A DNA stretch of 64,000 nucleotides. It comes from Rugalucina vietnamica. Its lineage: Eukaryota > Mollusca > Bivalvia > Lucinida > Lucinidae. Position 1 is the first letter of the stretch. Every line of letters starts with the position of its first letter. The DNA is taken from NCBI GenBank assembly GCA_964017185.1, contig OZ024870.1, forward strand, positions 26,931,621 through 26,995,620, in the 5' to 3' direction. Positions 22,064 through 62,900 of the stretch are shown piece by piece. The position numbers and the translations under genes were made by a program. The notes under the pieces were generated by a model. It saw only the letters and a program-made list of their open reading frames with translations. It did not search any database and was not told where the DNA came from.

Positions 22064-25000
22064 GTAATCACGCATACCCTCGTGCACCTTTAGGTCAATA
22101 AACAGAACAGTAAAGTGCAAAGTCCATATATTACTTTACAAGGCATTGTAGAAACTTACACTTTTTGAACCAGTCTAAATTTCACAAATTGGACAATCTT
22201 TCATTTTTATATTCGACGAGCGCGGTGGCTCAAGCGTGCAAGGGCTTGTCTCTTTGAACAAAAGACTTTTCTACTAATTCTTCATTATTACTATTACCAT
22301 TATTATTATTATTGTATACCACGAGGAAACTACGATTCCGTCCCGATTAAAAGCTTTAATCACTGACCCGCAAATAATACTTATACTGGGAAATTATTTG
22401 GCATCTGGGTCTTAACAAAGTTTCACATTGGCAACAGACAACTTTTAATTATTAACTTCCTGTCTTACTGCTATCAAATCTCATGTTAAAAGATACTGTG
22501 AGACAGTGTATGAAACTTCAAATAAAAATTGGTTTTGGTCAATAAAAAATTCTGGTGAGGTGCTCAGTAAATTGAAGTGTAGAGGGTTCTGTGCGACAAG
22601 CTTGTCCACATATGATTTTTCTACTCTGTATACAACATTACCTCATAATCTAATTAAAGAAAAACTTCTGGATTTGATAGAGTGGACCTTCAAAAGGGCA
22701 TTAAAAACTATGGTTTACTTTATTTGGCATGTAATGACAGGAGGGCTTTTTTCACTTCCTCTGACCAAAGTCGGTATACACTTTGGTCATGTCAGAATGT
22801 GTGCGACGCCTTATCCTATCTCCTTGATAATATTTATATTAGATTTGGGACCAAGTTATACAGACAGATTGTTGGAATTCCGATGGGTACAAATTGCGCA
22901 CCTCTCGTAGCTGATTTATTTCTATTCTGCTACGAAAGAGATTTCATGGATTCTCTTAACCATGATAATCAAGCTGATGTTATCGAGGCTTTTAATTCCA
23001 CATCTAGGTACCTCGATGACCTTTTGAACATTGACAACCCTTATTTTGAAGATAAGTCAATCAAATTTATCCACCTGAACTTCAGTTGAACAAAGCCAAT
23101 ATCTCAGATACCGAAGCCCCCTTTTTAGATCTACATCTTTCTGTTGCAAATGGAGTTGTTTCTTCTAAAATTTATGATAAGCGCGATGACTTTGATTTTG
23201 ATATAGTAAATTTTCCTTTTTTGGGTGGTGACGTTCCTCGTCGTGCTTCTTATGGTGTATACATTTCGCAACTTATTAGGTTTGCTAGAGTCTGCAATCG
23301 TGTTACAGACTTGAACGCTCGAAATATATGTTTAACGGCAAAACTTCTCCAACAGGGCTATCGGTATCATAAACTTCGAAAAACCTTTTCTAAATTTTAT
23401 CGTAGACACTATAAATTGATTTCCAAATATAATGTTCGGTTAAAGCTTTTTTTTAAGTGAGGGCCTTTCGGAACCTGAATTTTATGGTGACTTGGTTTAC
23501 AAATTTAAGAAACTTAAAGGAATTAATGATTTTTCTTTTCAGTTCAGAAAAATCATAACACGTTACAGACGTATAGGTTTTAACTTGAATGTTATGCGAC
23601 AGTCTGCATGCTTAGTTTTGAACCCAATCATGGTTGATAACTATGCTGCCTTCTTTAATTGCACGCCGGTGGGTCGGGCTTCAGACTCTATGATGGCCCC
23701 GACTTAAAGCTATTCATTTTAGTTGGTTGGGGCCGGAGCTTCTTGTCTGTTGATTGGCCCACCGGGGTCCAACTGGTGTTTTTCTTTTGCTCCGGAGTTA
23801 GTAGGTTATTCGGCGCCCAGGGATCTCCATCGTCGGGCAGCTTACTCAATCTGTGAGTCCTGGCTTTTGATTCATCAGGATGTTTATCATGATTTATTTG
23901 TTTGTTCTTGATGGTTTATTGACTAGTTAGAGATTCACCACGAGGACCGAAGAACTAACTAAATGTTATGAACCACTGCAGAAGCTGAGGGTGAGGTTAG
24001 GTACCTGTAAAACCGGTTTAAGCCCGCCATTAACTTTGTGTTACTGATCGTTCCAAGTCGATACTTCTGCGGTGGTTCTTTTTGTTTTATGTCTTGGTGT
24101 TTAATTTTTTTTTGTGCTGTTGGCGCCTTATGTATGTTATCATATTTTTTAGTTAAGTTAAGGTAACTGAGTGGCCACCTACTGGGAAAATAGCTGCTCA
24201 TTTGGCTTACGATATGTTTCATGGTATAAGTACCTGATTGTTAGTTTGGTTTTTTCCCACCTCGGTTTTTGGAGTGGGAATCTTTTTCTGATTGCACCTT
24301 TTCCTGATCTTTGCCTACTTGTACCTTTTTAAGAAGAAAAACAAGTTTTGCATCCCGGCAATTGGATCCACAATTTGGCCTTAAAGGCTTGAAAATCGGC
24401 AACCGCTTTCTAAACTAAAATCTGCTACAATACACATGAAGCAACCAACACCAGACTGAAATGACATTTTCTCGGCATTCAACTAATAATTTCGTTACAG
24501 ATGCGAACAAATATATATAGTGACCTCCACGACTCTCAATACATCGTGCGAAAAATATGTGTGTCAGTGGAATTACACAGGACAAGGGTTTGCTTATCAA
24601 CTTTTGGCTGGACCCATCTTCATCGTCATCTTTACAGTGTCTGGGATCTTCCTCGGTTTTGCAGCCGACAGGTTCAACCGTAAACTGATGTTGGGAGGAT
24701 GTCTGATATTCTGGTCTATTATGACACTGCTCACTGGGTTTGTTAACACCTACTGGCAGTTGGTGCTACTCAGATTTGGTCTTGGATTAGGGTAAGGTTT
24801 TTAGTATTTACATATGTACATGTTTTAGTACCGAATGGAACACTCAGTGTGTTCTAAGCTCTTTCTTTTTTAATGAATCTCAAAAGTAATTTAAGTATGA
24901 GACATGTATTATCAATATCAATACATGGGTTTTGCGAACTCTTTAAGATGGTGAACAAACTAGCTGTGAAAATACACCTATTTCTAAACGCAAAAGTTCA

Positions 25001-28000
25001 GTTTAACCTAATCGGAGAAATGGCCCAAGATGATATGAACATGTATAAACTCGAACAAGTAGCACAAAAGAATAATAAGCTCTTGATTCAAACCAATGTG
25101 TTGTTTTTATCTTAAAGGCTCATGAACAGATTAGCTAAGAGAAAAAGTCACACTCTTTTCTAGAATTTTGTGTGTGTAAATACAAGCAGCAATTTACTTC
25201 TTTAGAAATACGGTTCAATATAAAAATAATATGCTTGATACATGAGTTTTCCACAATAAGGTTAGTCTGCACAGGGAAGGTATCAAAAAGTGAATAAAAG
25301 TTTAGGAGCAGCCCGAGAAAAATGTTTGAAAAGATGCTGTAATTTGACGTCAGAAAACAACGGACAAACATAAAATTGTGCTTTTCCTTAGGAAAATCGC
25401 CTGCAGATATGATAAAAATGTTACAAACAGCAACAGAAAACCCCATCAGCTTGCCAGTCCATATAGACGATTTTCAGATTCTCGAGAAAGCACATGTGAT
25501 GATAAAAGAGCGGACTGATCATGGACACCCGTCCGACATGCTCACAGTGAGAAATTGGTTTCACATGTTCAATAGGTGTTCAGACACTTTGCCAAGGGTT
25601 GGTACACATCTACATTATGTAGATTGATATGTATTGATGTCCAAGCCGGATCTAATGTTAACCCCCACCCGCAACAACATTGAAACAACGAATGAATTGT
25701 GACTAATAAAATTTACGAAAAAGCGTAAAATGTCAAGTGATTCTACTACTTTGACTTCTTCCTCTTTACCGGTCGGAGAGGCACATGAAAAATACTGTAG
25801 AAGGCGTTATTTATAATAATAATAATGAGCCGCCTCGTGGGAAAACTAACAATGTGGTTTCCGAACAGGTCCGACACAAATCAGGCTGTACAGTCACAGA
25901 AGCAGACTAGATGCTTGAAATTTCGGATTTAAGAAGAAGAGAAAGTTTACTGTCCATGTAGCGAGAACAGAGGCGCTGATCAGCTTCGCGGTTACAGTGA
26001 AGCTGATCTGCGTCTTTGTTTTCGCATATGCAGATTGTTGGTTTTCCCATGGGGTGGCTCTATTGTTCAGATGTTCATATGTTCATTTATTTTCCACTAT
26101 TTGCTCATAAAATATTTTAGCGAAAGCCGATAGATCTAGAGTCATTTTATTTTATTTCTTTTTCTGTTGAAAACATCACCATGTCTACGAACTTTTTTGA
26201 CGAACCTCGTATATATTCATAGTATACAAAACCCGAACATTTTTTAAAACAATTTAAAATACTGAATGCATTTCAAGCTTGTAAGTTACTAATATTTGCA
26301 CACCTGCGTTACTTGAATACATTTACATGTGCCTTAATTTGGTCGCCATCAGAAATGCTTTTTGGGAACCGGAAGTTCTGAAACGCGATCAGAAAATTTG
26401 CAAAAGTCACCGCGACACAGACAAACATTACTTTATCGAAAATGTACAATCAAGACGGAAGTTGAACTACCAAAATGGTAATCATGTTTGTCTAGAAACT
26501 TAGTTTTGATACGCCAAAATCACACAATAGTTTGTTAAATTTTGAACAAGGGTTTTTATACTGCTACGAAAGAGATTTCATGGATTCTCTTAACCATGAT
26601 AATCAAGCTGATGTTATCGAGGCTTTTAATTCCACATCTAGGTACCTCGATGACCGTTTTGAACATTGACAACCCTTATTTTGAAGGTATGGTCAATCAA
26701 ATTTATCCACCTGAACTTCAGTTGAACAAAGCTAATATCTCAGATACCGAAGCCCCCTTTTTAGATCTACATCTTTCTGTTGCAAATGGATTTGTTTCTT
26801 CTAAAATTTATGATAAGCGCGATGACTTTGATTTTGATATAATAAATTTTCCTTTTTTGGATGGTGACGTTCCTCGTCGTGCTTCTTATGGTGTATACAT
26901 TTCGCAACTTATTAGGTTTGCTAGAGTCTGCAATCATGTTACATTCTTCAACGCTCGAAATAAATGTTTAACGGCAAAACTTCTCCAACAGGGCTATCGG
27001 TATCATAAACTTCGAAAAACCTTTTCTAAATTTTATCGTAGACACTATGAATTGATTTCCAAATATAATGTTGGGTTAAAGACGCTTTTAAGTGAGGGCC
27101 TTTCGGAACCTGAATTTTATGGTGACTTGGTTTACAAATTTAAGAAACTTAAAGGAATAAATGAATTTTCTTTTCAGTTCAGAAAAATCATAACACGTTA
27201 CAGACGTATAGGTTTTAACTTGAATGTGATGCGACAGTCTGCATGCTTAGTTTTTAACCCAATCATGGTTGATAACTATGCTGCCTTCTTTAATTGCACG
27301 CCGGTGGGTCGGGCCCCGACTTAAAGCTATTCATTTTAGTTGGTTGGGGCCGGAGCTTCTTGTCTGTTGCTTGGCCCACCGGGGTCCAACTGATGTTTTT
27401 CTTTTGCTCCGGAGTTAGTAGGTTATTCGGCGCCCAGGGATCTCCATCGTCGGACAGCTTACCCAATCTGTGAGTCCTGGCTTTTGATTCATCAGGATGT
27501 TTATCATGATTTATTTGTTTGTACTTGATGATTCATTGACTAGTTAGAGATTCACCACGGGGACCGAAGAACTAACTAAATGTTATGAACCACTGCAGAA
27601 GCTGAGGGTGAGGTTAGGTACCTGTAAAACCGGTTTAAGCCCGCCAGTAACTTTGTGTTACTGATCGTTCCAAGTCGATACTTCTGTGGTGTTTTTTTTT
27701 TTTTTTTTGTTTTATGTCTTGGTGTTTAATTTTTTTGTGCTGTTGGCGCCTTATGTATGTTTTCATATTTTAGTTAAGTTAAGGTAACTGAGTGGCCACC
27801 TATTGGGAAAATAGCTGCTCATTTGGCTTACGATATGTTTCATGGTATAAGTACCTGATTGTTAGTTTGTTTTTTTCCCACCTCGGTATCTTTTTCTGAT
27901 TGCGCCTTTTCCTGGTCTTTGCCTACTTGTACCTTTTTTCAGTGCTTCTCTGTGTTGCTTGTCCATAAAGACTAATTAATTGATTTGGAAACTCGAAAGT

Positions 28001-40121: not shown

Positions 40122-43100
40122 GTAAGTGATACCACGTTGACGTAGACCTTAGATGTATACTTACAGGGGTGATATCAGAAAACACACCTATGTGATGAGC
40201 AGCGAAATTTTCGGGGGTATTTTGGTTCAATATGGGGACATTCATTGCAAGTTTATGTTATTATCTTATCCTAGTGCATAATAAATCTCGTTCTTTTAAA
40301 CTGAACCTATAATTTCGATCATCAGCCAAGGGGATTATTATGACGTACATTTACATGTACTACATGTATGATGTACTAGCTGACTTTGAAACGTTATCTA
40401 AATCAAATCATACGCGTGATTATGACAAAACTGTTCAAATATTTAATTAAGGCCATTCAAATGCCATATCATCCGAGATCATGATGGTAATTCATGATCA
40501 TGATGATATTTCGCCATTGATTATCAACCAGACTAGGGATGGAGACCCACGGCCCCTGGTTGTACCGTCCGTTTTAGAAACCTTGGAGACACGTTTACCA
40601 CAAAGCAACAGTTCTGACAAGCTATACCGTGGCGTGAAGAATATATTTATATTGCAAATGTTCAAGGGATGTTCAAAAATACATACAGCATTTTGCTATA
40701 TTTTAAAGGCTCACTGGTCAGCGAATACTATATACATAGGATAATAATTACATCTGAATTGGAATTCATCCACAATGATATCATTGCATTAATATTGTTT
40801 AATTTACCATGGTCACGGATACTCGGGGTAGTCCATTCAACGAATTGTTTCAAACGGAAACTGATTTAACGTTGAATGATCTGTATTAAAGCTTCTCAAT
40901 CATCAGAATCAAACCAAACTGTGAGTTAAGATGGACAAATGATGCGAAAACATAATCATTGAATAAAAAGTAAAACTGAGTCCCTTTAAGAGCAGTGAAA
41001 ACATAAATGAGATGGGCCATACCGCGGTTTCGGCTACCCAACCCTCATCAGTGACCCTATATATGGAGCCAGAGACAATAACAGCAATTTTACAAATTCT
41101 AACCGTGACCGTGGTGTCAATACACAGACATGCAAATCTTAACAGAGCCAAACAATTAATCATTGTTCAGATGAATGTATCTAAACTGAGTATAGATATA
41201 ACCACGGCTATAGCACACGTTTCTGAAGACCTTCATGCTTCAGGCATGTGCGTGACAATATACTGCACGGTCACGCAAACTGCACATTCATTCAAGTATA
41301 ACAGTTGGTCCGCCGCATGGGAAAACCAACAATTTGCATAGGCGAAAACAAAGACGCAGATCAGCTTCGCAGTAATTACGAAGCTGATAAGTGCCTTTAT
41401 TTTCGCTACACGGATAGTACAATTCCTCTACTTTCTAAATCCAAAATTTCCAGCCTTTAACCATCTTCTGTGATTGTACACCCCGGTTTGTGCTGGACCT
41501 AGTCGGAACCCAAATTGTTGGTTTTCTCACGCACAGGCTCATTTCTCATTTACAGTGGTGGATGCGATGGGGAAGCCTCCTAGCGGAATTCTGGAAGCTC
41601 ATTTCATGTGGCTGGGTAACTATGACGAATGTCGCTCTGTTATTGCTCAGATCAACGCTACAAAACAAATCAAAGGGAAATATTGCAAGGCATCGTTCGG
41701 ACAACAGTCACAAGTATGTAATGGCAAGGAATTCAATATTAGTTACCAGCGCTTACACGACGAACAAAAGCATTTTGAAAATCATTATGAAAATCAATTT
41801 CGGAATACACGGTTGGAATACGAAAACGTAAAATCCAACACCTGAATGTGGTCTATGTATGTATGATTTCCACATGCAGAACGCATCATGGCCGATTTTC
41901 CCTCTTCATCCTTTTCGTCAGTTAAACCATGATACACGTACAATAATTTCACAGTATTTATATGTAGACTGAGACTAGGTGTTCTCATTCTTCTTTCATT
42001 TACAGACCTTCGATCAACAGAGTATACAACTCGTCATCGGCCTCTGTGTACCAAATAGCTGTGACCAGACTGACACGAGAGCTCTTCTTGACACACGTAG
42101 GTTCAACTGCTCATCAATTCCAATGCGAATGTGTTACATACTCGCCTTGCTTAGCTTTCTTTACCGGTGGCAATGGTTGCTTTCAACAGTTGACCAGTGC
42201 CTCTCTTATTTTCTACATGGTATTACGGGCGCATAAATACAATCTGCTGATAGTAACGACACAAAGTCAACTTGCAGTGAAAAGCAGACTAGCTACTACT
42301 TACGTTTCTGCTTTTTAAATTAAAGTCACCTTATTGGTCCCCGCCCACTTGGTCTTAGGGCTGCTTATGCCTCCAGGTTAAGCTTATACGCTACTGAGTG
42401 ACCATCTGAGTACTGGTTAACCGTCCAAATTTAAGCCTAACCAGGAAATGTTCAATTCAAACCATCCATACATCTAAACTTTAGAGGCTTATGATTTATG
42501 TTTATATTTGAAACACTTTTTGGATGCCATGGCAGCCTTATTTTGGGTAAAAGTCCTATAAAATTGAGGCAACGTCCTCACGCCCGGTAAAGTGCAAATT
42601 GACCACCGCCGGTGGTCAACGTAAAAAAAGTTGATATACATCCGGTGGTCGTTTTGAGCGTTTCCTGTTATTAGTTTTCGCGAGTTTGGTTGATGTGGAA
42701 GGTAAGATATTTTTTGACCAAAAACGTATTATAAAAATCAAAGAATGTCAGGCTATCAGTTTTTTGCCGTTGAATGTCTAGCCGAAGTGGTAGTTGAAAA
42801 AAATAAACCGTTTTACTGCAATCCTTTCCGGCCCGTTTGATCGGTAGTGAAAACGAAAGTAGAATCTGGTCAAACACAGGTTAAATTGTCCTGATCGTGC
42901 ATTTGCATGCTTTCTGTACCCAATGGTCGTTGCAGTTAGTTAAATGAACACTAAATTAGCTTTTCAGACATAATTTTAAAATATTTCAAGCTTTCCTTTC
43001 AACACTTAGATCGATTTTGTACCGGCGGTCAACTTGAAGTTGCGGTGGTCGTATTGATCAATGGGAATTACAATGTAAATTTTCATCGTGAGAGAAAGCC

Positions 43101-46100
43101 AGAAAAAATGCAACTAGATGTCGTTTTCTGTTAGGGGGCACGGCAACATTAATGGAGATGCATTCTAGACACAACCAAATCCAAATCAATGCCGTCGGTG
43201 TTCTCATAATTCAATTTCGTTTGTCCATTAGCCATTCAGTCACATAGTTTAGCAATATTGGGTGTATTTATTACTAATTTTTGGTAACCCCAACAATACA
43301 AATACTACCTCATGCAAGATGCATTGAATTTATGTACATAATTCGCATTGACTCGAAGAAAAACCACTAGAATAACATTGTGGTCAATTTGCAAACTAGG
43401 TGGTCAATTTGACCTTAAAAATGAGCAATTTTGAAATGATTTACTGTCCAATTTGAAAAGTATTGAAGGACATCTCTGCTGTTTAATGTTGAGCAGGCTC
43501 AGTCTGGCAGATTCGACAATTATAGGAGTAACACTAAGCAAAGCGTTCATTGTGTTGTTTGTATGAAATCTATCTCCTGTTTTACAATATCAATTCTTTG
43601 AATATGTAAAGGTGAATAATCACGTGGATTATATCAATTATATAAGAAGTTCTCCGGGAACAACATCTTGTGAATTGCTGGTGCCAATAGATTCTGTATT
43701 AGCTTGTGCTTTTGTATAGCTATGGTCTATCATAATCAAACTTCGTTTTGATTTCTTTGGGGTGCTAGTATACATGTACGGACTTAAGGTGGCTCGATAC
43801 CAATTTTTGTTGATAAATAAATCTATAATTTTAGACAGCTTAAAATATAGGTGGAATGCTACTCAAACAGCAAAATATTTGTAGGGGTACCCATGCTTTT
43901 TAAAAAGTTACGGATTTTCAAAATTGAGAAAAATATACTTTTTGAAATATTTTCAATTTTATTCTTCACGGAATAGATCTAAAATATGTAAACGGAATGT
44001 GTTTTAAACTGTAAATGTATTCACAAGCTAAGTGGCAAATAACAAAATAGAAAGGTAAAAATGAATACATGTATATGCATTCTAGGGCAAAATACAATTT
44101 CTTTTTGCAGAAAATATTTTTATTAAATTTCTGAACATATTTGTCCAGTACATCTCCGAGAATATACTTAGAATAACAAAAAACTGATTTTTAAACATGG
44201 TAATGATTATCAAATAATATAATGCATAAATTGATAGCTGTTTCCACGCTTTTTAAGCTGCTATAAGCATTTTCCCACACCCACCCCTCACAAAGGTACA
44301 TATCCCGGCAACCTCATAAAAAATTTTTCAAAAATATTTTTTAAAAAGGTACAAGTAGGCAAAGATCAGGAAAAGACGCAATCAGAAAAAGATTCCCACT
44401 CCAAAAACCGAGGTGGGAAAAAACCAAACTAACAATCAGGTACTTATACCATGAAAACATTTCGTAAGCCGAATGAGCAGCTATTTTCCCAATAGGTGGC
44501 CACTCAGTTACCTTAACTTAACTAAAAATATGAAAACATACATAAGGCGCCAACAGCACAAAAATATTTTAAACACCAAGACATAAAACAAAAAGAACCA
44601 CCACAGAAGTATCGACTTGGAACGATCAGTAACACAAAGTTACTGGCGGGTTTAAATCGATTTTACATGGCCATAACCTCACCCTCAGCTTCTGCAGTGG
44701 TTCATAACATTTAGTTAGTTCTTCGGTCCTCGTGATGAATCTCTAACTAGTCAATGAATCATCAAGAACAAACAAATAAATCACGATAAACATCCTGATG
44801 AATCAAAAACCAGGACTCACAGATTGAGTAAGCTGCCCGACGATGGAGATCCCTGGGCGCCGAATAACTTACTAACTCCGGAGCAAAAGAAAAACATCAG
44901 TTGGACCCCGGTGGGCCAAGCAACAGACAAGAAGCTCCGGCCCCAACCAACTAAAATGAATAGCTTTAAGTCGGGGCCATCATAGAGTCTGACGCCCGAC
45001 CCACTGGTGTGCAATTAAAGAAGGCAGCATAGTTATCAACCGTGATTGGGTTAAAAACTAAGCATGCAGACTGTCGCATAACATTCAAGTTATAACCTAT
45101 ACGTCTGTAACGTGTTATGATTTTTCTAAACTGAAAAGAAAAATCATTACTTCCTATAAGTTTTTTAAATTTGTAAACCAAGTCACCATAAAATTCTGCT
45201 TCCGAAAGGCCCTCACTTAAAAGCGTCTTTAACCCAACATTATATTTGGAAATCAATTCATAGTGTCTACGATAAAATTTAGAAAAGGTTTTTCGAAGTT
45301 TATGATACCGATAGCCCTGTTGGAGAAGTTTGGCCGTTAAACATTTATTTCGAGCGTTGAAGTCTGTAACATGATTGCAGACTCTAGCAAACCTAATAAG
45401 TTGCGAAATGTATACACCATAAGAAGCACGACGAGGAACGTCACCATCCAAAAACGGAAAATTTACTATATCAAAATCAAAGTCATCGCGCTTATCATAA
45501 ATTTTAGAAGAAACAAATCCATTTGCAACAGAAAGATGTAGATCTAAAAAGGGGGCTTCGGTATCCGAGATATTGGCTTTGTTCAACTGTAGTTCAGATG
45601 GATAAATTTGATTGACCATACCTTCAAAATAAGGGTTGTCAATGTTCAAAAGGTCATCAAGGTACCTAGAAATGGAATTAAAAGCCTCGATAATATCAGC
45701 TTGATTATCATGGTTAAGAGAATCCATGAAATCTCTTTCGTAGCAGTATAAAAATAAATCAGCTACGAGAGGTGCGCAATTTGTACCCATCGGAATTCCA
45801 ACAATTTGTCTGTATAACTCGGTCCCAAATCTAATATAAATATTATCCAGGAGATAGGATAAGGCGTCGCACACATTCTGACATGACCAAAGTGTATACC
45901 GACTTTGGTCAGAGGAAGTGAAAAAAAAAGCCTTTCTGTCATTACATTACATTAAAGCTGGTTATGTATGGATGTTTAGATTCGGAAATTGCCAATGTGA
46001 TGATACCAAAATTATTAAGTTCTAATAAATATTAGATGCGATATAAAGACCAAACGACCACTTGTCGTACACCACGATCATATTGTCCCGACAATTAGTA

Positions 46101-49100
46101 TGCTATAGAAACATTTTTAAAAGCTTCAACTTGAATGTAAAAAGTTATTATTTCCCTTTCAATACTGGCTGGATATGTGTCAGATGAGGTATTCTAGTTA
46201 GAGAATTTAAAACATATGTTCAATTATTAATAATTTTTAAATAAAAAAGAACAAAACAAGCAATTTCGATGCATTTTCATTTTCCATTCTTCTTCTTCTA
46301 TTGATGGGATATGAACATTTCTTCAACCATATGATTTTCATCACAATATGTGTAATCTATATTAAACTATACAAATTTTACAAGAACCTGATAATGATAA
46401 CGCTTGCTTTTCGAGCTCATTACAGTTGTCTTATCGACAGGCCTTAATACTTTTGATTTAGTCCCTGTTTTTATGTTTTTCTTCTTAGGAAATCCGAACT
46501 TTCCTTTCGGTGTATAGATTTTAGAACAAATTGTCTTTTGTGGTGATGAACCAATAGGAGTATAGGGTGATGAACTGTATTTTGGCTTTTTCTTACATGG
46601 CGATTTGAACGGACTCTGGACAACGTCTTGGATTTCCTGTCCACGCCAGAGATATGGTTTTTTGTTCGTCAGGTAACGACGCTTGGTTCGTTTCCCTTTA
46701 AATTGACCCACCTGGAAACGTATAAAAGAAAACATAAGGTCAGTAGGCGCAACTAGAACTGACAATGCCAGTTATTCTTCAGCATTAATACATGCATTCA
46801 TTCTACACTTTGCAGTGGACAATCACGTGATCTCGACTCTTTTGAACTAGCGTTTGGGTTTAATCAGCGAGCCAATCGACTGCTGGCAAAATCCAGAAAC
46901 ATTATGAATCTATTATTCCAACTGCTCGTGACAATGTGATGAAGAGGTACATGCATGTGTATTTTTACACGCCAATTCATCTAGCATTGACAATCTTATC
47001 ATGACCAATGTTTCTAAATATTTCGTCTGAAATTGATATAAACCACGTGATTATTCACCTTTACATATTCAAAGTATTGATATTGCAAAACAGGAGATAG
47101 ATTTCATACGCATAATGAACGCTTTGCTTAGTGTTAATCCTATATTTGTCAAATCTGCAAGACTGAGCCTGCTCAACATTAAACAGCAGGCATGTCCTTC
47201 AATGCTTTTTAAATTGGTCAGTAAATCATTTCAAAATTGCTCATTTTAAGGTCAAATTGACCACCTAGTTTGCAAATTGACCACAATGTTATTCTAGTGG
47301 GTTTTCTTCGAGTCAATGCGAATTATGTACATAAATTCAATGCATCTTGCATGAGGTAGTATTTGTATTGTTGGGGTTACCAAACATTAGTAATAAATAC
47401 ATCCGATATTGCTAAACTATGTGACATAATGGTTAATGGACAAACGAAATTGAATTATAAGGACACCGACGGCATTGATTTGGATTTGGTTGTGTCTAGA
47501 ATGCATCTCCATTAATGTTGCCGTGCCCCCTAACAGAAAACGACATCAAGTTGCATTTTGTCTGGCTTTCTCTCACGATGAAAATTTACATTGTAATTCC
47601 CATTGATCAATACGACCACCGCAACTTCAAGTTGACCGCCGGTACAAAATCGATCTAAGTGTTGAAAGGAAAGCTTGAAATATTTTAAAATTATGTCTGA
47701 AAAGCTAATTTAGTGTCAATTTAACTAACTGCAACAACCATTGGTTACAGAAAGCTTGCAAAGGCACGATCAGGGCATTTTAACCTGTGTTTGACCAGAT
47801 TCTACTTTCGTTTTCACTACCGATCAAACGGGCCGGAAAGGATTGCAGTAAAACGGTTTATTTTTTTCAACTACCACTTCGGCTAGACATTCAACGGCAA
47901 AAAACTGATAGCCTGACATTCTTTGATTTTTATAATACGTTTTTGATCAAAAAATATCTTACCTTCCACATCCACCAAACTCGCGAAAACTAATAACAGG
48001 AAACGCTCAAAACGACCACCGGATGTATATCAACTTTTTTTACGTTGACCACCGGCGGTGGTCAATTTGCACTTTACCGGGCGTGGTCCTGACATGAACA
48101 TAGCTGTTGACTGGAACGTAAAGCATCAATTCAAACAGACCCTTATTGATAGCTAATTTTCCTGATTTTTCTGAAGTGCAAATCTTATTATTGTTAAGAA
48201 AATCATTTTTTACTGACGTTGACCATTCGAGACTTATTTTCAATTTTGTTTGGCAAGACTGAGTAGAAGTAATCATATATGTAAGAATATTATCTGTTTA
48301 CTACAGTTCTAAGTTTACTACCCGTGAACACATCAGTGCTACCCCAGCCTGTGGTTATGTGCCAAAAAGAAAGTATAGCACTGGACACAAAAGCCATTGT
48401 GGTCATGTAAGTAAAGTTTATCCTTATATACTAATGATATTCCGACCCGAACGAAGTTGGGGTTAAAGAACGACCTTTAATTTGCAAGTCCTATATATGC
48501 AAATCTGGTGTTCTGGTTCTATAATGTATATTCAAGTTGTAATCGTTCACGCAACTTGATTTTTATGGTCAGCGTCACTGTTACAATCTACCGTTAATGT
48601 TTTCATCGTCAGCTAGTTTAATTAAGTTCATTTCAGAATTATTTTATGTTTTAGTGTCATTTGCTCACTCTTTGGCCTCGTTATGTTAGCTGCGACAACG
48701 TATGACGTTCTTATTGTTCATTGGCTCAATTATTTTCCTGGTTTGCTTATAAGATAAAATAATTAAAAGTAAGGTTAAGAAAGTAAAGCCAAGAGGAATT
48801 AAAGAATAGTTTAGGTTTTACTCAGCAGGGAAAAGTACATGTTAAATAACAGTACAAATGTTTAACTCAATATTTTTCAAGTCTGTCATGAATGACATGC
48901 ACTTAATTTAGACAACAAAATGAATCAGAATCATTAATAATAAATTAATATTCCATACAAACGCATGAAATGAAAATAGAAAAGAAATATGACATATATA
49001 TATATATGCTACGAAAGGGCATATGACACACAACATATATAATGCGAAAAATCATGCATAAATTTGGGCGGGTGGGTGGGTGTTTTTAAACAGAAAATTG

Positions 49101-52100
49101 CGTCTTGTTTCCCTGCTGTCTAAATTCTAACTGTGACGATTTGCGCCAAGATTATATTGTTCTCGGACAAATAACCAATAGAATTAAAGCTTACAAGAAA
49201 ATGTATGTTAGCGGAAAACTGATTGGATAAATAAAGTAGACTTCCTAAAAGCAGTATTTAAGGTATCCAAAAGAAGAAAAGTTGATGTTGAAGTTGTTGT
49301 TGTTCTACAAACAGTACGTCAAATAATTAAGTTTTATAAATTCTTATAAATGCCCAATTATTTTCCTGGTTTGCTTATAAGATAAAATAATTAAAAGTAA
49401 GGTTAAGAAAGTAAAGCCAAGAGGAATTAAAGAATAGTTTAGGTTTTACTCAGCAGGGAAAAGTACATGTTAAATAACAGTACAAATGTTTAACTCAATA
49501 TTTTTCAAGTCTGTCATGAATGACATGCACTTAATTTAGACAACAAAATGAATCAGAATCATTAATAATAAATTAATATTCCATACAAACGCCAACCCAC
49601 CGGCCAAAGCAAAGCGAAGCAAAGCGTATACAAAAGGCAAATAACGAAAATGAACATAAAATAATTTGAACCCAATCTCTGTTCAAAGAGAACAAGAAAA
49701 ACTATAATCTAAATTAATAGCTAATCTTGTTCCAATTTATCAAGCTATGAGAATGCAACTCATCATATTAGAACAAAGGTTAAATTCAAACATGTCAACA
49801 TGTAACAGTCTTACCATATATCTTGAGTAATGTGACAATTGAGAGCAATCCTAATTTTCTGTTAATTCCACAGGAATGCTTCTATATGTGACTGCAATGT
49901 AATTAAGAAATATAAACATGAAATAATTAATGAACAAAGATAGTATGAATAATGACATATGTACAAAGAAACAAAATGTTAAATACTTAATTCAAATAAT
50001 ATATCTAATTACGTATATATGAATTTTTTAAAAATAATTCATTACTTTACAAATGAATTGATACACATGTTATGTGACATACACTTTTTAATATTAGAAG
50101 CTTATAAGATATATATGGATTTTCATTTGATATGACAGAATCCTTAATATTATTTGATAAACATGAATAATGTAATAACATACACGATTGAAATATATGC
50201 TGTTTTGAATTAGTTAGTCTAAAACCTGGTAACTTACATGCAAATTTCAATGAAAATTTCAAAATATTTTGAAAATGTATTGCAAACTTCAAGTTATACA
50301 AGAGTTAGTTAATGTGTGAAAGTTTAATTGTTAACCATTAACTTCCAGTAATAAAATTTGAATTCTTACACCTTACATTTATTAACAGAATATTATTATT
50401 TAAGATAATGCATAGTAGATGATTCAATATGTAGAAGATAGTAGTAGAAGATTCATTATATATAATCTTATCAAAGACAATCAATTTGTCAAATGCTGTA
50501 TTTAACATCAAATTTCAATATATCTCAACGCACACACATATATACAAATTTGGTAAAGAAATATATACAAAGATCAGAAAGAAAATGTGTACTGTTTGAC
50601 CTCATCATAATGCATTATATTACAAAATGGCCATGCAAATGACAAAGTCCTTTGCTAATATAAATATGATTCTGGTGTATAACCTTAATATAACACAGTT
50701 ATATGGAAAGCATGCATCGTTTTACTGACAGATATAATGCATTATGAAGAAGAGAACTGTATACCATAAGGTTGGCCTAAGAAACTATCATGATTTGTTT
50801 ACCATAAGGTAGCCTGAGAAATTATCATGATTTATCAAAATCAATCATATAGACATAAGAGAAGTAACTTATTTCACATAGAGGCAATAGTTCTCAAAAA
50901 ATAATAACGTAGCCTACTTGTGCCTTGTGTGTTTAGGTGCAAGCCACCATCTCTTTTAGCAAAAAGTTCCCTCCTAACTTTACCACCAAAGACAAAAGGC
51001 CTGTAACTTTTGATGAATTTGAAGTTGTAAGGCTTGCTCATATTGTTCAACAAGTATGAATTTATTCTTCTGGTAAAAGGGTCAGTAGCATCATAGTCCT
51101 TTGGACGTGGTAAAATGGATGATATAATGATATTAATCTTTGGGTACTTCTTTCTTACGACACCTATCAGGTTTCCAAAATCTGAGATGATGTGATCAAA
51201 TGAAGATTCGTTATCTACATCATTGGTGCCAACATGAAACAGCACATAGTCAAAATTATTGAGTTTGGCTATGTTCTTGTCAACTTTATAAGTTATTTTG
51301 GAAATTGTGTCTCCGGAAAAGGATTGCACCAGCACACCCTCTATGTCAGCTACGTATTTGGCAATGGAATCACTGACAATGGTGACCTTTTTGAACTCTG
51401 CAAAAAGGAGACAAAAATAAACATTTTTCAATACAATAAATGCATAAGATAATATTTAAAATGATAATTTCTATGAAATATAATATCAGGCCTGCCTCTA
51501 AGTAGAAATGCTATAAAATAATTTATTTTGCAAATAATTCAAAAATGAGAAATTCAAGGTACAAATAGAAGTCTTGTCAAAGTCTCTCTATAAGACTGAC
51601 ACTATGAGACAATAGTCCAGTATCTGAATTATTTGCAGAACAAATGTGTTCAATACTATAATTGTAATAGAAGTTTAAATGAACTGTACATCTAAAACAA
51701 AGTAGAAGGTACACTAAAATCAATGTCTCTGTCTTTCTTCACACTAACTTGAATGACCTGTTTTTTATCAAGCACATGAAAGTCATTGCATTAATCCATA
51801 CATATTAAAAACAATTCCATCATTTCTAAGATAAGGTAATGCCAGATTTTCATGTGCAGGAAAATCTATAGCAAAACACCATCCTTCCTCAGGTAATGGC
51901 TATCTGAAAATGTTGGAGAAATGCTATCAATATGTATTTATAAGCCTGAAAGAAAGCATACATGAAAAGTGTTAATCAATATCAAACTTCTTCAGGCAAA
52001 AACCATGTTAAATTTCCATGTGCATAGAAATCTATAACATACGCTATCCTTCTGCAGGTAATAGCCACCTGAAAAATCTTGATAAAGACGAAGTATGCCA

Positions 52101-55100
52101 CTAAGCTTATTTTGAAACTTTCAAATAGAGAGGATAGATTTTTTCATTTTAGATACTACTACCAACTTATCTTCCAGTGAAAAGGACAAATATTGTTGAT
52201 AACAATCACTTTTCCAATCACCATGCATTTTAATTAATTCTACCGGTACTTTGGATCGAAAGGCATACGAAGTTCCGCCTCTTCTGAAACTGTGTGTTGA
52301 AAATTCCTCTGGATTTAACCCTATTTTTTGTATGAAATATCTTAATCTTTTTTGATATTGATAATAAGTGACACATTTTTTATTCGGTAGTGAAAATAAT
52401 GGATCAGAAGGTCGAGCCGGAACCATTTCACACATTTTATTAAAAGCTTTAATTGGACAAAGAACTGAACCAGGAATTTCTACAATTGGTAGTTTCAAAA
52501 TTTTTTGTCCAAATTGTATTGTTTTAGACCAGTTAATGTGTACAATCAAGACATTCCCCAAAGATTCAATATCTCCACGTAATAAGAATCTTTTAAATTG
52601 AGAATGCACAGAATCTGGCACTAAGTTAGATTTTCTCGCAAATAAAAAGAAAGCAAACAGAAACAAGCACCAAAAAACTGTATCTGCTGGATCGGAAAAA
52701 TTAAAATGTTTGTGCATTGATATTAAAATTTCAGGTGTTATAGCCTTGGCTTGTTTTGTCAAGTGTTGTTTTACTCTTTCCATTCAGAAAATTGCGTCTT
52801 GTTTCCCTGCTGTCTAAATTCTAACTGTGACGATTTGCGCCAAGATTATATTGTTCTCGGACAAATAACCAATAGAATTAAAGCTTACAAGAAAATGTAT
52901 GTTAGCGGAAAACTGATTGGATAAATAAAGTAGACTTCCTAAAAGCAGTATTTAAGGTATCCAAAAGAAGAAAAGTTGATGTTGAAGTTGTTGTTGTTCT
53001 ACAAACAGTACGTCAAATAATTAAGTTTTATAAATTCTTATAAATGCCCAATGATAGACCAATGATGGCCTCGTTATGTTAGCTGCGACAACGTATGACG
53101 TTCTTATTGTTCATTGGCTCAATGATAGACCACAGAAGCTAACGCGTTATCAGGTATATTATTACAACACTTTAAATGACATGTATAACCAGAGGACCAT
53201 TGGTCCTGAGAACGCTCACCTGAAGCCTGATCTTGGAGTATTAAGTCATAATGAAATGACCTTGACCTTGAATACTCACACACCTTTATTGACTTCATAA
53301 GTTGTCTAATGAAATGACCTTGACCTTGAATACTCACACACCTTTATTGACTTCATAAGTTGTCTGCATCTGCAAAGTTTCAGGTCTCAGGCTGCAATAG
53401 TTTCCAAACCCAGTGATTTCTGAGAAAACCATAATTTTAATTTTGATATTTAAATGACCTTGGGCCAAGGTCAAGACATGACCTTGGCCTTCATTAATTA
53501 CTTATCTTCATTGAATCCATTAGTTGTTTGCATCTAGCAACTTTCAGGTCTCAGGCTGCAACAGTTTGTTTTCGCCTTTTCCGATGTAAAAGCCTATGTT
53601 TCCAAAATTGACATTGCCGTAAAATAGGTCAAGGTCATCATAGGGTCATCATTTCAACAAACTATGATGGGCTGGAGTCCCAAATGCTACATACCATGTT
53701 TCATGAAAATTGGCCTGCTGGTTCTGGAGAAAATTTTTGAGTGGTTTTTACCATATATGGGCATGGCGGCCATCTTGGTCATGTGACCTGGATTTCGCGA
53801 TCAAACTTTCGTCTCCCCTACCCATGGATGCTCCACATAAAATTTCACTTTGATTTGCCAAGCAGTTTCAGAGAAGAAGATCTTTGAAAAGAGTGTATGG
53901 ACAACAGACTGGCCAAAGTCAAGAGATGACCTTGACCTATATTAATCACATACCTTCATCTACTCCATTAGTTGTTAGCATCTACCACTTTTCAGGCCTC
54001 AGGCTGCAATAGTTTTCAAAAAATCCATAGTTTTCACTTTTTCCTATGTAAAAGCCTATGTTTCCAAATTTGACCTTGCCGTAAAATAGGTCAAGGTCAT
54101 CTAAGGGTCATCATTTTATCAAACTATGATGGGCTGAGGTCCTCAATGCTACATACCAAGTTTCGTGGAAATCGGCCCACCGGTTCTGGAGAAGAAGATT
54201 TTTGAGTGGTTTTTACCATATATGGGCGTGGCGGCCATCTTGGTCATGTGACCTGGATTTTGCAAACTTTCGTCTCCCCTACCCATGGATGCTCCACATA
54301 AAATTTCACTTTGATTGGCCGCGCTGTTTCAGAGAAGAAGATCTTTGAAAAGTGTGTATGGACAACAGACTGGCCAAGGTCAAGAGATGACCTTGACCTA
54401 TATTAATCACATACCTTCATCTACTTTATTAGTTTTTTTTGCATCTACCACTTTTCATGCCTCAGGCTGCAACAGTTTTCAAAAAATTCCATAGTTTTCA
54501 CTTTTTCCTATGTAAAAGCCTATGTTTCCAAATTTGACCTTGCCGTAAAATAGGTCAAGGTCATCCAAGGGTCATCATTTTACCAACTATGATAGGCTGA
54601 GGTCCTTGATTCTACATACCAAGTTTCGTGGAAATCGGCCCACCGGTTCTGGAGAAGAAGATTTTTGAGTGGTTTATACCATATATGGGCATGGCGGCCA
54701 TCTTGGTCATGTGACCTGGATTTCGCGATTAAACTTTCGTCTCCCCTACCCATGGATGCTCCACATAAAATTTCACGTTGATTGGCCAAGCAGTTTCAAA
54801 GAAGAAGATCTTTGAAATGTGTGTATGGACAACAGACTGGCCAAGGTCAAGAGATGACCTTGACCTATATTAATCACATACCTTCATCTACTCTATTAGT
54901 TTTTTGCATCTACCACTTTTCAGGCCTCAGGCTGCAATAGTTTTCAAAAAATTCCATAGTTTTCACTTTTTCCTATGTAAAAGCCTATGTTTGCAAATTT
55001 GACCTTGCCGTAAAATAGGTCAAGGTCATCCAAGGGTCATCGTTTTATCAAACTATGATGAGCTGAGGTCCTCGATGCTACATACCAAGTTTCGTGGAAA

Positions 55101-56894
55101 TCGGCCCACCGGTTCTGGAGAAGATTTTTGAGTGGTTTTTACCATATATGGGCGTGGCGGCCATCTTGGTCATGTGACCTGGATTTCGCGATCAAACTTT
55201 CGTCTCCCCTACCCATGGATGCTCCACATAAAATTTCACTTTGATTGGCCGTGCAGTTTCAGAGAAGAAGATCTTTGAAAAGTGTGTATGGACAACAGAC
55301 TGGCCAAGGTCAAGAGATGACCTTGACCTATATTAATCACATACCTTCATCTACTCCATTAGTTGTTTGCATCTACCACTTTTCAGGCCTCAGGCTGCAA
55401 CAGTTTTCAAAAAAATTCCATAGTTTTCACTTTTTCCTATGTAAAAGCCTATGTTTCCAAATTTGACCTTGCCATAAAATAGGTCAAGGTCATCCAGGGT
55501 TATCATTTTATCAAACTATGATGGGCTGAGGTCCTTGATTCTACATACCAAGTTTCGTGGAAATCGGCCCACCGGTTCTGGAGAAGATTTTTGACCAAGT
55601 TTCGTGGAAATCGGCCCACCGGTTCTGGAGAAGAAGATTTTTGAAAAAAAAAAAAAAAAAAAAAAAGCATCTCACCGCGGTGAGACAAGCCAAGTTCTGC
55701 TTGCGGGTGTTTACCATATATGGGCATGGCGGCCATCTTGGTCATGTGACCTGGATTTCGCGATCAAACTTTCGTCTCCCCTACCCATGGATGCTCCACA
55801 TAAAATTTCACTTTGATTGGCCAAGCAGTTTCAGAGAAGAAGATCTTTGAAAAGTGTGTATGGACAACAGATTGGCCAAGGTCAAGAGATGACCTTGACC
55901 TATATTAATCACATACCTTCGTCTACTCCATTAGTTTTTTGCATCTACCACTTTTCAGGCCTCAGGCTGCAATAGTTTTCAAAAAATCCGTAGTTTTCAC
56001 TTTTTCCTATGTAAAAGCCTATGTTTCCAAATTTGACCTTGCCGTAAAATAGGTCAAGGTCATCTAAGGGTCATCATTTTATCAAACTATAATGGGCTGA
56101 GGTCCTCGATGCTACATACCAAGTTTCGTGGAAATCGGCCCACCGGTTCTGGAGAAGAAGATTTTTGAGTGGTTTTACCATATATGGGCGTGGCGGCCAT
56201 CTTGGTCATGTGACCTGGATTTCGCGATCAAACTTTCGTCTCCCCTACCCATGGATGCTCCACATAAAATTTCACTTTGATTGGCCAAGCAGTTTCAGAG
56301 AAGAAGATCTTTGAAAAGTGTGTATGGACAACAGACTGGCCAAGGTCAAGAGATGACCTTGACCTATATTAATCACATACCTTCATCTACTCCATTAGTT
56401 GTTTGCATCTACCACTTTTCAGGCCTTAGGCTGCAATAGTTTTCCAAAAATCCATAGTTTTCACCTTTTCCCATGTAAAAGCCTATGTTTCCAAATTTGA
56501 CCTTGCCGTAAAATAGGTCAAGGTCATCCAATGGTCATCATTTTATCAAACTATGATGGGCTGACATCCCCGATGCTACATACCAAGTTTCGTGGAAATC
56601 GGCCCACCGGTTCTGGAGAAGAAGATTAGTGGTTTTTATCAAATATGGGCGTGGCGGCCATCTTGGTCATGTGACCTGGATTTCGCGATCAAACTTGTAA
56701 TGCTTGAGGCTCCACATAAAATTTCAACTAGATCGGCCAAGCGGTTTCAGAGAAGAAGATCTTTGAAATTGTGGACGACGGACGGACGGACGGACGGACG
56801 ACGGACGGACGCCGGATCATGGCCATCCTATAAGCTCACCTTCGGCTCAGGTGAGCTAAAAATCTCAGTTCTTCACACACTTATGGTGTCAGCC

Positions 56895-56943
<49 letters not shown>

Positions 56944-59900
56944 ACGTTTGCTTAACCACACAGTTTTAAAGAAAAATGAAAACCCAAAATTTAAGAACGA
57001 GTTTATTTTTTACTGTTTATCATACTGTAAAAGTACTACATGTAGTATAGTAACTAATACAAAACCACGGATGCAGGTTTTAAAAACGCTTTAACTGTAT
57101 GAAAGTCTAAAACGGAAAACAGACTTAGAATTCTCAAAAGTGAGATCACAAATCCGAATCTTTTTTTTTTTTTTCAGGTATTCAAAAATGAAGATGAAAG
57201 GATAAGTGTAGATGCAGATACTAAACATTATGGTTCTATCGACAAGACTGCTGTGGATGTTGGTCATGATACTGTTCTACCAAATGGTGACTTTGGGAAA
57301 TTAGACAACGCGCACACTCAAGAGAAGGAAAAGTATCAACCTGGTAAATACATTGAGATAACATTACAGCTATTAAAATTCGCTAGATTGTTGTTCAAAC
57401 AATGGTACAAGCAATCAAGGACAGGTGCAAATTATGCTTCCAAACATCTATCTTACATCAGTGCTTATTACAAACTTAAATTTGTTCAGAACATGGCAAT
57501 TATTTTTTATTGCAAAACGCAAACTGAGTCGTCCGATGGAGTCATATAGACAGTTACAGACTAGGCTTGAACATTTGTCTGTTTTGAGCGGTTATAAATT
57601 GTTGAATAGACAACAGATTTCAATGGCGCATATAATTTGAGCCGCATCGTGAGAAAACGGGATTATTGCTTATGCGAAAACAAAGGCGCAGATCAGCTTC
57701 GCGGTAACCGCGAAGCTGATCAGCGCCTTTGTTTTCGCTACTCGGATAGTACAATTCCTCTTCTACTTAAATCAGAAATTTCAAGCTTCTAGCTCTTTTC
57801 TGCGCTAGTACAGGTCGGTTTGTGTCGGACCTGGTCGGAAACCCCGAAGACCGGTTTTCTCGCGTCGCGGCTCATTATGAATTAATTTCAGGAATTTTAG
57901 GGAAGGTCCTTCTTTCGTTTTCTGTGTATACCAACGTAACGAAGCTTCTGAACACCAACCAACCAGCGGGCACACTGTCATCTATCAACGGGATACGGTT
58001 CCTCAGTATGACATGGGTCATGTTGGGACATAGTTATGGATTTGGAATAAGCGTTGCCGGTAATGGAAGCATGATAATAAAAATGTTATTTCCTCTGTTC
58101 GTTGAACTACAGCAATTGTATTGTGGTGAATAAGCTGGTACACTCCCGCTCGCGTAATTGTACTCCATTTACGCGTATTACGCGAGTATTACGTGAGTAT
58201 TACGTGCGTAAGGCCAATTACGCGCATTTACGCATAACATGCGCGCATTTACGCGTAACATATCTCATTAATATTCATAAGCAGAGATAAATGCGTCGAT
58301 GCGCGTAAGGTTCAGTCATTACGCGTATGAAGTATCAGCCAATCAAATAGGCAATACGTTTACGCGTATTTACGCGACACATACGCGTAATGACAAGGAG
58401 TATTAAAGCTAAACCTAACAGTTGATTTTATTATTCCATCGAAAACAAAGATGTGCAAGTTTAATGGGTTTTATTGATATATCGTGATCGTGTTAATGGC
58501 GTGACCTTATTCAAGTTATTGTCAAATCGTTTTATGTGTCTGTGACCCTAAGATAACGTGTTAACAAGCGAGTTAGATTTCATTCAAAATAAATCGGAAA
58601 TTCATTGTGCCCAAGATGGCGAACAAAATCCACATGAATATCAAAGTTAGGATCATTATTTTAGACTTGAAGCGTCTCGGGACGACATATGGACAGATAA
58701 ATAAGATACAAAGTAAAGTGTATGGGTTTTCTGTCACCCGCTATGTTGTGTACAAACTCATCCGAAGAACTTACAGTGGGTGCTAAGATAGAAAACAGAA
58801 AGCATGGAAATTTACAGAAGGCCACAGAAAAAAGTGTTGAACTTGTGGATGTCACAGAACAGTGACTTAGCGGCAAGGGACATTTTCAAACACTTTCAGA
58901 AAGAAATGAATATATCTTACTCCCTTTCAGCCATCAAGAAGCATGAAAGCGATTTGTCACGTGTTATTTTGTATGAAATGTTCTAGGCGATTAGTTAATA
59001 CTGCAAAACATTAGATATTGTTTTGGTCTAAAGCAAAATCCGGAATTTTTGTTTAACCATACAATCTCAAGATTATTGTCTCATTCATTATGCGTATATT
59101 TCGCGTAATTTTTACGTAATACTGTTTTACTCTCAATTGGTTAGAACAATACGTATATATACGCGTATATACTCCATATACGCATAACGAATCGCTTTAC
59201 GATTTGACCGCCTATTGGTTAAAGTCATTGCGCGTAATGTACGCACATTACGCGTATCATACGCGTTAGAAGAATTGAATTTTGGTTGGCTATTGACACA
59301 TACGCGTATTAAATAGGTGCGTATTACGCGAGTATTATGTGCGTATGTTACGCGCAGTCAATGAGTACAAAAACGCAAGCGGGAGAAAAATGAGTCTAGA
59401 AATGAACGTTAAACCAGAGCATACCTAGCTTAAAAACTCACCTATTAGCCTTCGGCTCAGGTGAGCTAAAATACTCCAAATCTACCTGCTAAACAATTAC
59501 CAGTTATCCTGATTATTACGTCGCGCCTACTTTAAATATGTGATTTAAACATTATGCGTATTTTATTAAAACTATTTTTACCATGCCATTCAGTAACACG
59601 TGTTTTTACAATACAGAAAATCCAGCTACCTTTATGCCGGAGATGTTGAAGCGGTTTTCGTTTCAAGCCATTGCTAATGCAACAGTATCAGTAGATACTT
59701 TTTTCACACTAAGGTATGCGAAGTTCTTCAGATTTCTGAGAGGAATAGAAACTTTAGGTTTTTTCTAAAGCGTAAAAAAGAAGAAAATTACGAAATTCTA
59801 TTCAAGTGATGCAGAACGGTAGACAAAGGGCAATAGGTAATGTGCTGTGGATGTTAAATAGCCAAAACAAAAATAATGCGCACAGAGACTGAAACTATGT

Positions 59901-62900
59901 TGTTGTTAACTATGTTGTTGTTTTTTCATACTAAAACTTAAGTTTCTATTCATCTCTGTTTACATGTAACAATATCTTACAATATTATCATTTTACTGTA
60001 CATAATACAATTTGTGTTTGTAGTGAGGAACTATAAAACTATCTATATATAAATGCTCACCAATTCACAAAGAAAGCCATGAGACAATAATTTCGAGACT
60101 AAATGAATCTACCCTGACATACATGTACATGTACGAGGGGCGATCAGAAAGTTCATGCACATTGGGTTTAACGTTTTAATTGTAATAGATATAAAAATTA
60201 TTCTCTCATGTTGTTTTAAAGTTATGGCTGTAGAACACGAACTTTAAGAACACATTCAGGTAATAACTTTTGTTATGTTTCCATTATACATGTATGTATT
60301 GTTTCAGCGGTTTGTTGGTGGCATATTTAACACTGAAAGAGATTAAAAAGAGGGGTGGTGTTAAAAAGATGAACTGGGGAATGTTCTATTTTCACAGATT
60401 CTGGAGGTAATGTAGTGTTAAATATTTGAAAAAGATCATGATACAAAACGCTTTATCCAAATACCAAACTATGATTAGAAATTTACCTTGTAAACATTGC
60501 TAACAAACCAAAAATTATTTCAGCTACATTGAGTTCTTCCTTGCTTACAAACAGTGTACTTAAAATTTTAGTTAGTTAGTGCAGAAATAAACAATCATTT
60601 TCAAATTAAGATGATGCACTGGATAATAAAAATGACAGCATTCACTACAAACTTCAAATGACTCGAAAATAACAAATATGCACATACACTGAAAAAAAGT
60701 TATAAGAGGCCACCTTATATTTTTTCTTCTAGTTCAGAAAGTAAAATACGATCAATTAAAATTCATGATCATATGAATAAACCAATGTCTAACAGTGGCT
60801 CTGTGAGTTTCTGCATTCCAAAATGCGTGATACTTCTCACACAGACGAAGCATGTGTAAAGGTACCCTATTTCAAAAAGTCACACTTTATTAACATCAAA
60901 TTAAATGTCATATTATGACGTTGTGTTTTTACATTTTAATTTATTTGAAAGTGCTACTAACTGCCATGATGCAAGATAAAATTAAGTCAAAAGTGTTGCT
61001 GCAATAAGAATCTTCGTTTCTGTTTTGTACATGCAATAAGACAACAACCTGAATAACAGGAATTCAGCTTTTGTATGCAATTTGCATACCAACTTTGTTC
61101 TTCTCTAGTTGCGTTATTATCAGCAGCACGGCATTGAAATTTTCAGCGATAATTTAGGTCAAATACTAGACTCTGATAAATTTGAAAATTAAAAAAATCG
61201 TCCACAAATTTTGTTATTTTGTTCGTTAAATATTGGCAATGAAATCGGAAGTGTGCGGCAGCCTTGACCTGTTGGTCCTCGAAAATGGTCTAAAACAGTT
61301 CAGTCGAGTTATATCTCTCATTTCCAGGCCTCATCAATTGCATTTAACAGGGGTCAACATGTTTAAGAGGCACATTTATGAATTTTCCAAAAAATCTCAA
61401 AATTGGCGATTTTTAAAAATGCATAAAAATTCTACCAGTAGAGAAAATTCGAATGTTTGATGTTTTTCCGAGCCGTAACGACCCCTTTGATGACACCCGT
61501 TCCTAATTTCAATAAATGGTGTGCTGTATCCAATTTTTTATTTAAAAACATTGATTTTTGCATTTTTACTCCAAAAACGCCTTTAGTAAAAGAAAATTAT
61601 TTCTTAACACTTTGGAACTTTACTTACTTGAAAGACACGTCTTTTGGCAAAAAATCGTGCAAATTTGAACATGGCTTAGAAACAAAAAATGAGTTTGAAA
61701 AGTGGCCTCTTATAACTTTTTTTCAGTGTATATATTGTCTGCAAATGTTTGGTTGTCACTTGTTATTGTTATTTAAAAAGCACCAACTTTTGTCCACTCA
61801 TTGCTACCATAACGAAAACACACCCAAATTGATATTTTTAGCTCACCTGAGCCGAAGGCTCACAGGTGAGCTTATAGTATACCCATGCTCCGTCGTCCGT
61901 CCGTCCGTCGTTCACAATTTCAAAGATCTTCTCCTCTGAAACCGCGTGGCCAATCAAAGCCAAACTTCACGTGGAGCATCCTTAGGAAGGGGGAATGAAA
62001 GTTTATATAAATGGTCCAGGTCACATGACCAAGATGGCCGCCATGGCTATAAATAGCAAAAACCTTTAAAAATCTTCTTCTCCAGAACCAGTGGGCCGAT
62101 TTCCACGAAACTTGGTATGTAGCATCTGGGACGCGGGCCCATCATAGTTTATATAAATCATGACCCTAGGATGACCTTGACCTATTTTACGGCAAGGTCA
62201 ACTTAGATCGCCAATGCATTTGAATGGGAAAAAAATGGTAAAATGCTATTTAATGGGTAAAACTTACTGAGAATAGGCAAATGGACAGAAGATTAATGTT
62301 AATGGAAAATTTTAGCCCCTGGGGGGTTGTCTGCCTCTGCCCCGGGGCTATATACATGTATATTTCCATAATAATGAAACATCTTCTCCCCTGAAACCGC
62401 ATGGCCAATCAAAGCCAAGCTTCATCATGGAGCATCCTTGGGAAGAGGGAAAGAAAGTTTATATAAATGGTCAAGGTCACATGACCAAGATGGCCGCCAT
62501 GGCTATAAATAGAAAAAACCTTTAAAAATCTTCTTCTCCAGAACCAGAAGGCCAATGATTTTTAAACTTGGTGTGAAGCATCAGGCAATGGAGCTCTACA
62601 AAGTTTATGTAAATCATGACATTGGAAGACCTTGACCTTTTTTTACGACAAGGTCAACTTAGGTCACCCATGCATTTGAATGGGAAAAATAGGAAAGTTT
62701 CATTTAATGGCAGAAAACTTGCTAGGAATGAGCAAATGGACAGAAAATTTGTTTATGGAAAAAAAAAATGACCCCAGGAGGTTGTCTGCCCCTGCCCTGG
62801 GGCTATATACATGTATAAGACCATAATATTCAAACATCTACTTCTCTGAAACCGCTATACCAATAAAAGCCAAACTTTAAGTGGAGCATTGTTAGGATGA

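Follow-up and report, generated by a model that had tools for sequence, protein, structure and literature searches.

Our analysis indicates that the element at 48731..53052 of the window (the whole 64,000-nucleotide stretch of DNA analysed here) is most likely an ordinary, internally deleted and probably non-autonomous Ngaro-like tyrosine recombinase (YR) retrotransposon, because its YR is truncated at the A1 repeat, relatives of that YR are joined to reverse transcriptase (RT), and published Ngaro elements carry both an SGNH hydrolase and split direct repeats. The whole element is 4,322 bp long with its ORFs on the minus strand, where the order of features is A1, YR, SGNH, a gene-less stretch of 1,281 bp, B1, A2, a stretch of 126 bp, and B2. 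The element and its flanks comprise the following features.

53053..53132, no strand: right flank, the rest of the first target unit (GATAGACCAATGA) and the second unit copy; 67 of 71 bp recur without mismatch at 53066-53132
52785..53052, minus: A1 repeat, 268 bp, forming the 5' end of the element and 100% identical to 49091-49358; plus-strand end CCCAAT/GATAGACC
52783..52786, minus: putative internal deletion junction, at which YR codon 119 (P0002 numbering) follows the end of A1; homologues continue upstream
52121..52783, minus: YR ORF, 220 aa, catalytic domain complete and N-terminal domain missing (ORF, homologues and fold)
50874..51455, minus: SGNH hydrolase ORF, 193 aa, stop to stop (Pfam and motifs)
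49593..50873, minus: 3' stretch from SGNH to B1, 1,281 bp, A+T-rich, without a trace of RT (tblastn and profile)
49359..49592, minus: B1 repeat, 234 bp, 100% identical to 48731-48964
49091..49358, minus: A2 repeat, 268 bp, fused to B1, 100% identical to A1
48965..49090, minus: stretch between A2 and B2, 126 bp, single copy within the window
48731..48964, minus: B2 repeat, 234 bp, forming the 3' end of the element; plus-strand edge GGCTCAAT/TATTTT
48673..48730, no strand: left flank, belonging to the first of two tandem target units of 71 bp; its 58 bp recur exactly at 53066-53123

Comparison within the window recovered two pairs of direct repeats, one of 234 bp (48731-48964 and 49359-49592) and one of 268 bp (49091-49358 and 52785-53052), each with 0 mismatches, in agreement with the two perfect pairs, the order A1-ORFs-B1-A2-B2 and the fused B1-A2 junction described in the original prediction. 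The structure of Ngaro elements has been given as A1-[ORFs]-B1A2B2 (PMC8547959), and the split direct repeats found here follow it with one deviation, the 126 bp between A2 and B2, which is a counterpoint to the simple scheme. Because A2 runs straight into B2 in the published structure, this stretch (48965-49090) is most simply predicted to be the rest of A2, its counterpart in A1 having been removed by the deletion; the deletion would then start inside A1, and a complete A repeat would measure 394 bp. Were 268 bp the natural length of A1, the deletion would instead lie just beyond it. The 100% identity of the repeats permits a fair inference of recent activity of the element, as had been suggested, and the reverse-transcription model proposed for split direct repeats implies near-identical copies at insertion (PMC6681497).

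On the plus strand, the edges of the element are GGCTCAAT/TATTTT on the left and CCCAAT/GATAGACC on the right, and the internal B1-A2 junction is CCCAAT/TATTTT. CAAT is common to both edges and to the internal junction, and the latter matches the junction expected of a circle. A crossover at CAAT between a circle with CCCAAT/TATTTT and a target with GGCTCAAT/GATAGACC yields exactly the observed edges, with no need for a target-site duplication. Insertion without target-site duplication is a feature of Ngaro-like retrotransposons, and the flanks here join at the common CAAT, as expected for YR integration. The flanks share an identical stretch of 58 bp (48673-48730 and 53066-53123). A target-site duplication of about 60 bp was considered and rejected, because the repeat does not stop where the element was inserted: with the flanks joined, it forms a tandem unit of 71 bp, of which 67 bp recur. 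The element thus probably entered a pair of 71-bp tandem units that already existed. Neither the target unit nor pieces of the element recurred further in the window at E 1e-4.

The YR ORF lies 2 bp from the terminal repeat, as reported earlier, and its start is a truncation point rather than a natural start, both P0001 and P0002 being longer. P0001 matches the entire 220-residue ORF at 99% identity and extends 55 residues further upstream, while P0002 (338 aa) is 83% identical to the window YR, whose start (MERVK) corresponds to residue 119 of P0002. A search of the protein collection with the 220-aa ORF returned 788 homologues at E <= 0.01, some with PF00589; among the best 120 of them, many are 315-346 aa long and some are shorter, the shortest having 145 aa. 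As Phage_integrase scored only E 0.011 in the window ORF, under its Pfam cut-off, the YR assignment is based on these homologues and on the fold matches of P0002 to Cre and XerH. The structure predicted for P0002 from 23 sequences has a mean pLDDT of 72.6; confidence is mostly good beyond about residue 131, and residues 1-130 are predicted with low confidence to be helical. Its best PDB matches, several of them near full length, are Cre and XerH, but the TM-scores are low, at about 0.4-0.5, and the rmsd is large; the position of the N-terminal domain therefore follows mainly from the analogy to Cre. R, K, H, R and Y do not vary among the 23 aligned homologues (the window sequence is not among them) and are all present in the window ORF, as is the third His, which is H in 15 of the 23; we take these residues to be the catalytic ones. 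The catalytic domain, described earlier as intact-looking, is thus complete, but the YR protein is not intact, for its N-terminal domain is missing. The deletion removes the N-terminal half of the YR and keeps the catalytic half, cutting between the two recombinase domains, and the 220-aa fragment is unlikely to work alone.

RT and RNase H were not detectable in the element itself, as had been noted for these 4.3 kb. The RT/RNase H parts of eight long relatives had no match inside the element at E <= 10 (tblastn), and an RT profile built from three relatives scored no better than E 0.42 in the six frames of the element and no better than E 0.76 across the window; as a positive control, a YR profile from the same three relatives gave E 1.7e-71 in the element. 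A decayed RT at 49593-50873, which the original prediction had raised, was sought in both ways and did not appear, a result that says little because the RT of relatives lies upstream of the YR and not downstream of the SGNH. Further, the gag-like front parts of P0243 and P0248 (labelled by eye) had no match in the element. Absence of a methyltransferase domain separates Ngaro from DIRS and PAT; none was found at E <= 0.1 in the two ORFs, although most of the coding part of this copy is deleted, or at E <= 0.01 in the eight relatives. A YR without RT would also suit a Crypton-type DNA transposon, an exceedingly improbable reading here, as split direct repeats of 234 and 268 bp contradict the definition of Cryptons, which lack terminal inverted repeats as well as long direct repeats (PMC3212892).

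The second ORF matches Lipase_GDSL_2 of Pfam at E 3.3e-10, consistent with the SGNH hydrolase-like ORF proposed before. It has motifs with Ser (VSDS), Asn (GTND) and Asp/His (DGGLHLN), which presumably serve as such in an SGNH hydrolase. A splice-acceptor-like TTTTTGCAG ending at 51398 was seen by eye in this ORF. The hydrolase had been suggested to be a passenger of a distinct element class; however, SGNH is nothing novel but a published companion of Ngaro YRs, as the Ngaro-like DIRS-53_XT and DIRS-54_XT of Xenopus have gag-like, RT/RH and YR ORFs together with an SGNH ORF (PMC9210276). According to the same source, the split direct repeats of DIRS-53_XT are 236 and 152 bp long and both 100% identical, and DIRS-54_XT showed none. 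Like DIRS-53_XT (Xenopus tropicalis), the window element has split direct repeats arranged as A1 / B1, A2, B2 and the SGNH after the YR, and the repeat lengths are of the same order (236 and 152 bp versus 268 and 234 bp); in contrast to it, the window element is without RT, RNase H, the N-terminus of the YR and a recognised gag, and has the additional 126 bp between A2 and B2. The Ngaro-type architecture assigned in the original prediction is supported by DIRS-53_XT together with the repeat order and the YR. The hydrolase of Ngaro elements is described as without proven function (PMC9210276), and the present copy does not settle its role.

Among 2,372 candidates, eight long proteins hold a window-type YR. 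RVT_1 (Pfam) is present in three of the eight (P0241, P0242 and P0247, all from Mytilus edulis) and absent from five; an RNase H-type domain is present in P0246 and, under its cut-off, in P0241; SGNH is present in P0247 and, just under the cut-off, in P0244; and P0243, P0245 and P0248 are without any of the three. The YRs of the three Mytilus edulis proteins are 48-53% identical to that of the window over the aligned part. P0247 holds RT, the front part of the YR and then SGNH in this order, and is 41% identical to the window SGNH over 162 columns and 53% identical to the window YR over 59 residues, while P0244 (Mercenaria) joins YR to SGNH. Unlike the window element, P0241, P0242 and P0247 hold RT; they are known from proteins alone, in which repeats are not visible. 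Gene models can join unrelated neighbouring genes, and P0239, which has RT and a piece of SGNH, was not counted, its RT being LINE-like by eye and probably a nested insertion. A match of the N-terminus of P0244 to Mytilus gag-like models was not significant (best E 5.4) and was dropped. Some YR and SGNH proteins come from contigs of equal length, for example P0072 and P0179 at 4,825 bp, which suggests linkage; this was not relied on, as short contigs may agree in length by chance and a shared long contig does not show that two genes are close.

RT and RNase H thus occur in relatives with the same kind of YR. A quick YR tree was made from 73 rows, comprising every second row of the first 120 (60 in all), 5 additional rows, the window YR, and the YR parts of seven of the eight long models, with P0248 omitted. 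In this tree the RT-joined rows fall outside the 62-row clade holding the window (SH-aLRT 99), and P0244 falls inside it on a long branch. That the nearest relatives have RT is therefore an inference drawn from the outer branches and the arrangement of the repeats. This bears on the second alternative of the original prediction, a distinct RT-less class that has a recombinase and a hydrolase of its own and moves in the form of a DNA circle. The lack of detectable RT and RNase H, the retained active-site residues of the YR, and the fact that no RT-joined model lies inside the 62-row clade would all accord with such a class. Nevertheless, we consider it very improbable: the N-terminal half of the recombinase is gone, a longer and almost identical YR is known, Mytilus gene models combine RT with this family of YR, and split direct repeats take part in reverse transcription according to the proposed model (PMC6681497). 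Instead, the YR cut at the edge of the repeat and the relatives joined to RT favour the first alternative, in which a full element was trimmed.

For such an internally deleted Ngaro-like element, we infer a parent of the form A1-(gag)-RT-RNase H-YR-SGNH-B1A2B2, from which this copy has lost all of the sequence between a point inside A1, or its end, and YR codon 118. A transcript from A1 to B2 would be reverse transcribed into a circle by way of the repeats, the RT coming from another element if the deletion preceded this insertion, and a YR-mediated crossover between CAAT of the circle junction and CAAT of the target would then integrate it without target-site duplication. Once deleted, the element could have moved only with the RT, and probably also the YR, of full copies.

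The deletion may have occurred in place or in the last replication, leaving a unique and probably dead copy, and this version is somewhat favoured. It is consistent with the small number of near-identical protein records (3 member sequences in the P0001 cluster and 2 for P0121, although gene callers can miss copies) and with the ATG after the junction being an internal Met of YR homologues (e.g., residue 119 of P0002); nothing counts directly against it, and the single copy in hand fits the other version equally. That other version, an old deletion that founded a non-autonomous subfamily multiplying in many copies of the same structure with the RT and YR of full copies, is a tentative option. 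The 100% repeat identity would be expected if the trimmed copy was itself made by reverse transcription, and a precedent exists in SIRE, a truncated derivative of another YR retrotransposon, VIPER (PMC6681497); the few near-identical records speak against it, with the same reservation about gene callers. Like the window element, SIRE is a shortened, non-autonomous derivative that keeps both ends; in contrast to the 4,322 bp here, it is only about 435 bp long and comes from a different group. It seems quite unlikely that trimmed Ngaro elements form a trans-mobilised family keeping SGNH and a catalytic-only YR as useful products, for example a YR fragment interfering with or assisting the full recombinase.

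The window element reveals no new element class. It adds an SGNH-bearing Ngaro-like element, probably from a bivalve, whose split direct repeats are exact and whose integration junction at CAAT is clean. Molluscan Ngaros appear as counts in the available parts of two earlier reports, with 53 instances in the mollusc Lottia gigantea (PMC4157794) and low copy numbers in bivalves (PMC10294476). The named animal relatives in the YR, SGNH and long-protein matches are bivalves (Mytilus, Mercenaria and Ruditapes) and one amphioxus, most rows being unnamed. Scans of prokaryote and virus contig collections gave 44 and 38 pattern matches with the YR alignment and 63 and 114 with the RT-YR alignment, none of them confirmed, and the prokaryote and virus content of these collections makes both blanks weak. 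Two relatives carry the names of bacterial bins, Sedimenticola and Thiodiazotropha, and these rows would represent host DNA in symbiont bins.

A splice-acceptor-like TTTTTGCAG, recognized by eye at 51398-51409, lies immediately before the SGNH domain of the element. P0180 and P0196, two protein relatives from the database, likewise change in character, by eye, near this point before SGNH, suggesting that the SGNH hydrolase ORF may be a spliced exon.

Further features in the window were as follows, those marked (r) coming from repeat comparison:
22449-23460, 26539-27324 and 44966-45946 (r): three related ORF regions
42579-43420 and 47244-48085 (r): arms of an 842-bp inverted repeat
53463-56768 and 61919-63121: tandem arrays beside the element, unit ~454-464 bp
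57771-58133: ORF whose end contains INGIRFLSMTWVMLGHSY

The end of the last ORF reads like the beginning of an NRF-6-type acyltransferase, as we presume from sequence, and the ORF had no Pfam match at 0.01. The three related ORF regions are 95-98% alike and carry motifs (e.g., VGIPMGTNCAPLVADLFLYCYERDFM and YLDDLLNI) that, in our reading, look like those of Penelope-like reverse transcriptase; three ORFs tested from these regions had no Pfam match at 0.01. Left of the element, the inverted-repeat arms are 98% complementary and spaced 3.8 kb apart. Repeat comparison within the window also placed stretches of the two tandem arrays in mutually inverted orientation.
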